A stretch of 64,000 bases of DNA from Lucifuga dentata (taxonomy: Eukaryota > Chordata > Actinopteri > Ophidiiformes > Bythitidae), in assembly GCA_014773175.1 (NCBI GenBank), contig VXCM01002817.1:116487-180486 (forward strand). Reading direction: 5' to 3'. The position numbers and the translations under genes were made by a program. Below are positions 52,862 to 53,448 of this stretch, piece by piece; positions within the stretch are counted from its first letter, which is position 1, and every line of letters starts with the position of its first letter. The notes under the pieces are model-generated. The model was not told where the DNA came from and made no database searches. It saw nothing but the letters and a program-made list of their open reading frames with translations.

Positions 52862-53448
52862 ATGTATCAAAGTCTCGCCCTGTCCTCCAATCAGTCCCCC
52901 TACGCGCACGATACCGGGAATTACATCCATGCTTCGGCCAGCTCTCCGGTCTACGTCCCCACTACCAGAGTCCCGGCCATGCTGCCTACTCTGCCTTACC
53001 TGCAGACCTGCGACTCCCCCCATCAGTCCCACGGCCTCGGCGGGCACCATGGCTGGCCCCAAACCGGCACAGACGGCTCCTCATTCACGCCCAGCAGTCC
53101 TCACCCACCTCCCGGCTTTTCCTACTCTCACAGCCCGCCTGTCAGCAGCAACACCGGCCGGGAAGCGACCTACCAGAGCCCGCTGGTTCTTGGAAACGGC
53201 GCACGGGCAGACCAGTACGGAGGCGCTCTAATGCGCTCGGTCGGAGGGTCCTATTCCAGCCCGTACGCGTACATGAGCCCGGAGATGGCGACCTCCTCCT
53301 GGACGCCTGGACCCTTCGAGAGCGGAGTNGTACGCGTACATGAGCCCGGAGATGGCGACCTCCTCCTGGACGCCTGGACCCTTCGAGAGCGGAGTGATCA
53401 GTCTGCAAGGACGGCAAGGAGGTCTGTCTGGAAGGAGGTGCAGTCTGG
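52862..53448 (+). CDS. gata5: gata5 coding exon 1 (N-terminal activation region, contains assembly duplication)
   Basis: Encodes residues 1-173 plus one base. The segment is CpG-rich and serine/proline/tyrosine-rich, with the SPVYVPTTRVP block and PYLQTC motif typical of the GATA4/5/6 N-terminus. Positions 53263-53328 are repeated exactly at 53330-53395 with a single N at 53329. The 67 additional bases shift the frame, so a direct translation ends at 53482. With one copy and the N removed, the frame runs on through GRRCSL to a GTATGT donor at 53449 and joins exon 2 in phase 1. Confidence 0.93.

Follow-up and report, generated by a model that had tools for sequence, protein, structure and literature searches.

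Coding exon 1 of gata5 in the genome assembly of the cavefish Lucifuga dentata contains a 66-base segment twice, and this duplication was almost certainly made by the assembler, i.e. it is a false homotype duplication; the artefact was inferred from the assembled sequence. The fish itself would have a single copy. The marks of a false duplication that can be checked without reads were all found in the window, the whole 64,000-nucleotide stretch of DNA analyzed here: (i) one locus is present twice, the copies agreeing at 66/66 positions, and a genome search with exon 1 returned one place only, the gata5 locus with its two copies; (ii) a gap, the single N, lies between the copies at what would be a contig boundary; and (iii) there is no haplotype difference between the copies (0 mismatches in 66 bases). 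Each copy borders directly on the N, so a longer match is impossible without crossing it, and the length of the match rules out a chance origin. Tandem Repeats Finder (TRF) also picked out the 66-base unit at 53263-53395. The sequence-only reading had reported the identical segments around one N, and its coordinates proved exact. All features are listed in Table 1.

Table 1. Features of the gata5 locus and of the other single-N duplications in the window.
Feature	Position	Strand	Basis and remarks
gata5 coding exon 1 as assembled	52862..53448	+	587 bases, or 520 after removal of one copy and the N; Pfam GATA-N
First copy of 66-base segment	53263..53328	+	66/66 identity; frame fits homologues; read as the left contig's end
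Single N	53329..53329	.	Sequence; read as contig junction
Second copy of 66-base segment	53330..53395	+	66/66 identity; like copies at other single-N gaps; read as the right contig's start
gata5 exon 2, N-finger	56012..56181	+	Spliced frame
False 55-base intron GTGAGG...GCGCAG in exon 2	56033..56087	+	P0018 mapped on the window
gata5 exon 3, C-finger	57402..57527	+	Spliced frame; starts at 57399 when the alternative acceptor, 3 bases upstream, is used, as in P0018
gata5 exon 4	57802..57886	+	Spliced frame
gata5 exon 5	58213..58343	+	Spliced frame
gata5 exon 6 with stop codon	59331..59450	+	Spliced frame
65-base exact copies around N 3555	3490..3620	.	Flank comparison
66-base exact copies around N 4364	4298..4430	.	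Flank comparison
66-base exact copies around N 26922	26856..26988	.	Flank comparison
66-base exact copies around N 31275	31209..31341	.	Flank comparison
67-base exact copies around N 42046	41979..42113	.	Flank comparison

When one copy and the N were removed, six exons with GT/AG splice signals (exon 1 donor GTATGT at 53449) joined into an open GATA-5 frame of 383 residues, continuous into exon 2 as had been predicted from the sequence. The first copy, read in frame, encodes the stretch around YAYMSPEMATSSWTPGPFESG; the second copy would be the false one. The 67 added bases (66 plus the N) do shift the frame as forecast: spliced to exon 2 with both copies and the N kept, the gene reaches a stop after 203 residues, and the unspliced open frame (52862-53482) comprises 206 amino acids. 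Removal of the N alone yields an in-frame 22-residue repeat within an open frame of 405 residues. The one-copy protein matched the GATA-N family (PF05349, 235.3 bits) and PF00320 (104 bits) in two stretches, corresponding to two GATA zinc fingers. Among the best 120 of 5009 matches, every GATA-factor name was GATA-5 and, judging by the names of these listed matches, the gene appears to be GATA-5, closer to it than to GATA-4 or GATA-6. The GC content of exon 1 is 63%, compared with 39% for the window. A tandem CAGCAG acceptor was seen at 57396-57401, where use of the first CAG adds one glutamine before TTSRR; this residue is carried by P0018 (the deposited L. dentata protein described below) and P0069. 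A search of the whole window against Rfam at gathering thresholds gave no match.

The gata5 duplication belongs to a series that the sequence-only reading did not mention. Of the 21 N runs in the window, 19 are single Ns, and exact flanking copies of 65-67 bases were found at six of these 19 gaps. At N 22244 (22151-22308) the two sides have a 64-base word in common that does not reach the edge, next to GT microsatellites; this may be a similar overlap with a difference in repeat length. Of the window's other 12 single-N gaps, nine have an edge with 10 or more identical bases out of 12. The same pattern was present in a sample of 19 stretches from the same genome (164,827 non-N bases; one stretch, L005, all N), of which 16 sit at the beginning of scaffolds and three come from the scaffold of the window itself. 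Exact flanking copies of 57-67 bases occurred there at 26 of 60 single-N gaps (one each of 57, 58, and 64 bases, two of 63, five of 65, five of 66, and eleven of 67), and 30 of the remaining 34 gaps have a low-complexity edge. Taking window and sample together, the pattern was detected at 32 of 79 single-N gaps, and no copy exceeded 67 bases at any of the 79 in a scan that reached 699 bases where stretch length allowed. Conversely, exact adjacent duplications of 40-300 bases spanned an N in six of six cases in the window and in 26 of 30 in the sample; the four without an N lie at two places (L009 and L018). Had the six window duplications been placed independently of Ns, the probability of this outcome would be about 7e-22. 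The sharp ceiling at 67 bases and the tie to single Ns point to an origin in software, not in the DNA. Single-N gaps without long copies or common words were also inspected (window and L003-L021), and in 39 of 46 a single base predominates at the edge; these look like homopolymer breaks rather than overlaps.

In the sampled parts of the assembly the fault is thus systematic and not special to gata5. The observed density, 32 per 228,570 known bases, extrapolates to about 84,000 places in the 597.9-Mb genome, a rough figure (Poisson 95% range 57,000-118,000) drawn mostly from scaffold starts and from a genome length that includes Ns. A search for 7tm_1 (PF00001) genes, chosen as intron-less coding genes and in which 147 of 1073 candidates were scored in a way that favors intact genes, gave three genes in two pieces among the matches listed (on C4180, C950, and C7189). 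The pieces on C4180 and C950 overlap in model positions but lie about 0.9 and 1.0 kb apart, and those on C7189 do not overlap; no close pair with overlapping model positions was present among the matches listed. By a hand estimate, an unbiased set equally large should contain some 16 such pairs if the average rate of the sampled genome applied. The 7tm_1 list, favoring intact genes as it does, gives no support for the genome-average rate in coding DNA.

Comparison with homologues, which the sequence-only reading had proposed as a check against gata5 of related fish, favored one copy. In 119 of the best 120 of 5009 homologues one copy scored better than two, and the lone exception was P0018, the deposited protein of the gata5 locus itself. 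Among the matches listed, fish GATA-5 records reach 92% identity over 100%, and the top eight, with 382-384 residues, show 90-92% identity over 100%. A separate search with exon 1 gave 64 matches, of which 61 fitted one copy better, two were ties (P0266 and P0304), and one (P0283) fitted two copies better; on inspection P0283 has no second unit, its frame seemingly being lost in the duplicated region. This exon 1 search, aimed at read-derived, independent Lucifuga sequence, returned nothing near-identical, the best match reaching 94%.

These comparisons bear on the possibility that L. dentata has a real in-frame tandem duplication, by which the N-terminal part of GATA-5 would gain a second copy of 22 residues, with the N a stray ambiguous base. 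Since 66 is a multiple of 3, the reading frame alone is compatible with this explanation, and the frame stays open once the N is dropped. It is nevertheless highly unlikely: apart from the record of the same locus, all listed homologues prefer one copy, and duplications of the same size class, with the same ceiling, occur at single Ns elsewhere. In addition, a strict ungapped scan of the 120 listed homologues (score cut 45) found a second in-frame 22-residue unit in none of them; 74 showed a single unit and the other 46 showed none, indels and divergence hiding it at this cut.

Further GATA loci were surveyed with the GATA-N domain, which gave five matches at three genes in the genome. The first of the other two genes (G000:C2554:23318-26812, locus L022) has GATA-6 as its best named matches, among the matches listed, and contains a 61-base exact copy around the N at position 1997, near the end of exon 1. 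Its frame breaks as given, but a single copy yields QSRGAPLIRGPNG, the reading also present in P0125 and P0131, whereas P0121 differs by one residue (three homologues compared). Another N of this stretch, at position 272 and about 850 bases upstream of the open frame of the gata6-like gene, has a 65-base exact copy. The gata6 search yielded no protein labelled L. dentata in the best 120 of 187 matches, most records being nameless and names shortened. In the third GATA-N gene (on C1541) the whole model was matched in one piece. The members of the two split GATA-N pairs overlap on the genome by 17 and 28 bases.

The copies could also be two parental alleles laid side by side, and such heterotype (allelic) duplications are another common source of false duplications (PMC8081667, PMC9516828). 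For gata5 this is extremely unlikely, as allelic copies should be longer and diverged, but the two copies here agree at every base and those of the sample are exact and at most 67 bases long. A real frameshift inactivating gata5 in the cavefish has next to no chance of being the explanation: although the frame as given runs into a premature stop and gene decay has been studied in the genus (PMC7826195), the break coincides precisely with an N, the remaining exons have GT/AG signals and stay open, the one-copy protein closely resembles its best listed homologues, and the gata6-like gene is broken in like manner.

The assembler-made duplication would probably have arisen as follows. A de Bruijn assembler working with k-mers of about 67 bases would have left two contigs whose ends share the 66 bases within gata5 exon 1. 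A scaffolder would then set them side by side from read-pair links and, finding no positive gap, write one N. With the overlap left unmerged, the 66 common bases would appear twice and, together with the N, add 67 bases and shift the frame. Copy lengths of 57-67 bases would correspond to about one k-mer, although they vary, and a simple k or k-1 rule misses some cases.

Related faults have been described. The Vertebrate Genomes Project (VGP) paper distinguishes false homotype duplications, one type of which is overlapping sequence at contig boundaries, and warns that a false duplication may be mistaken for a duplicated exon, whole gene, or segment (PMC8081667); a gap separating the copies on one scaffold is listed among the signs of false duplication (PMC9516828). 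The VGP cases resemble gata5 in that a locus occurs twice at an apparent contig boundary, with a gap between identical copies. They differ in that overlap-layout-consensus assemblers were used and copies are often about as long as a read, whereas the series reported here has short copies and a one-base gap. The false segmental duplications treated in PMC2864568 are likewise a single locus built twice by assembly software, but the abstract of that work concerns polymorphic regions of diploid genomes. Also comparable are the negative gaps of Meraculous, where read pairs imply a contig overlap that the k-mer graph leaves unjoined; 95% of these (938 of 985) were closed (PMC3158087), whereas here many were left as one N. 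The kind of fault is already known, and new are only this case, its database consequence, and the rough extrapolation. Literature searches combining 'Lucifuga dentata' with gata5, or gata5 with assembly gaps, found nothing, and those for false duplication or negative gaps returned general works.

The duplication has entered a public protein record. P0018, 'hypothetical protein LDENG_00059870, partial [Lucifuga dentata]', maps to the window with all its 497 residues in nine collinear stretches. Residues 113-305 correspond to exon 1; they pass from the first copy across the N and read the second copy in the wrong frame. Residues 306-312 run on into exon 2, still in the wrong frame. The true frame is regained at DGTGHYLCNACG after a false 55-base intron that jumps a stop. 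This intron deletes the first half of the N-finger, with the CVNC pair, while the C-finger is kept. The predicted stop at 53482, with both fingers lost, applies to the open frame taken by itself and not to the deposited model, whose product is a chimeric, not a truncated, GATA-5. The further expectation that annotation would call the gene partial or split agrees with the label 'partial', but the missing start codon may explain that label. The first 112 residues of P0018 derive from 51779-52758, upstream of gata5, and the start MYQ at 52862 is missing; this is apparently a separate modelling fault.

How far published work is affected was also considered. The paper on the L. dentata genome tallies loss-of-function mutations, frameshifts among them, in vision, clock, and pigment genes; it also used this genome as the reference for mapping L. 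gibarensis reads, and an adamts20 insertion is reported as common to both species (PMC7826195). What the paper describes argues against wide contamination of its results by the artefact. That some published conclusions rest on it, e.g. that the adamts20 insertion is a false duplication in the reference carried over by the mapping of L. gibarensis reads, we consider very unlikely. A search for the GON domain, which we take to mark ADAMTS9/20, gave matches on two contigs, with internal stop codons in four of five matches on C1118 and one of five on C1807. The matches overlap in model positions on both contigs, and no duplication is readable from them. Those with stops at G000:C1118:159318-161602 may represent the adamts20 pseudogene of PMC7826195, or the stops may lie beyond exon ends. 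A viviparity study, which lists the L. dentata genome in its references, counts Pfam matches on genomes and merges overlapping alignments (PMC10854053). Counts of this kind could rise through split matches, but both split GATA-N pairs, since they overlap, would have been merged, and no inflation is shown; this lowered our estimate that published conclusions are affected.

The biology of gata5 itself is ordinary, and the duplication is a plain assembly mistake. Its consequence is that public databases now hold a chimeric GATA-5 with about 47 out-of-frame residues and half a zinc finger gone. A script can easily locate the fault by looking for a lone N whose two flanks are identical over as much as 67 bases. 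Since L. dentata frameshifts serve to date gene loss, frameshifts and insertions in this assembly need to be screened for single-N duplications.
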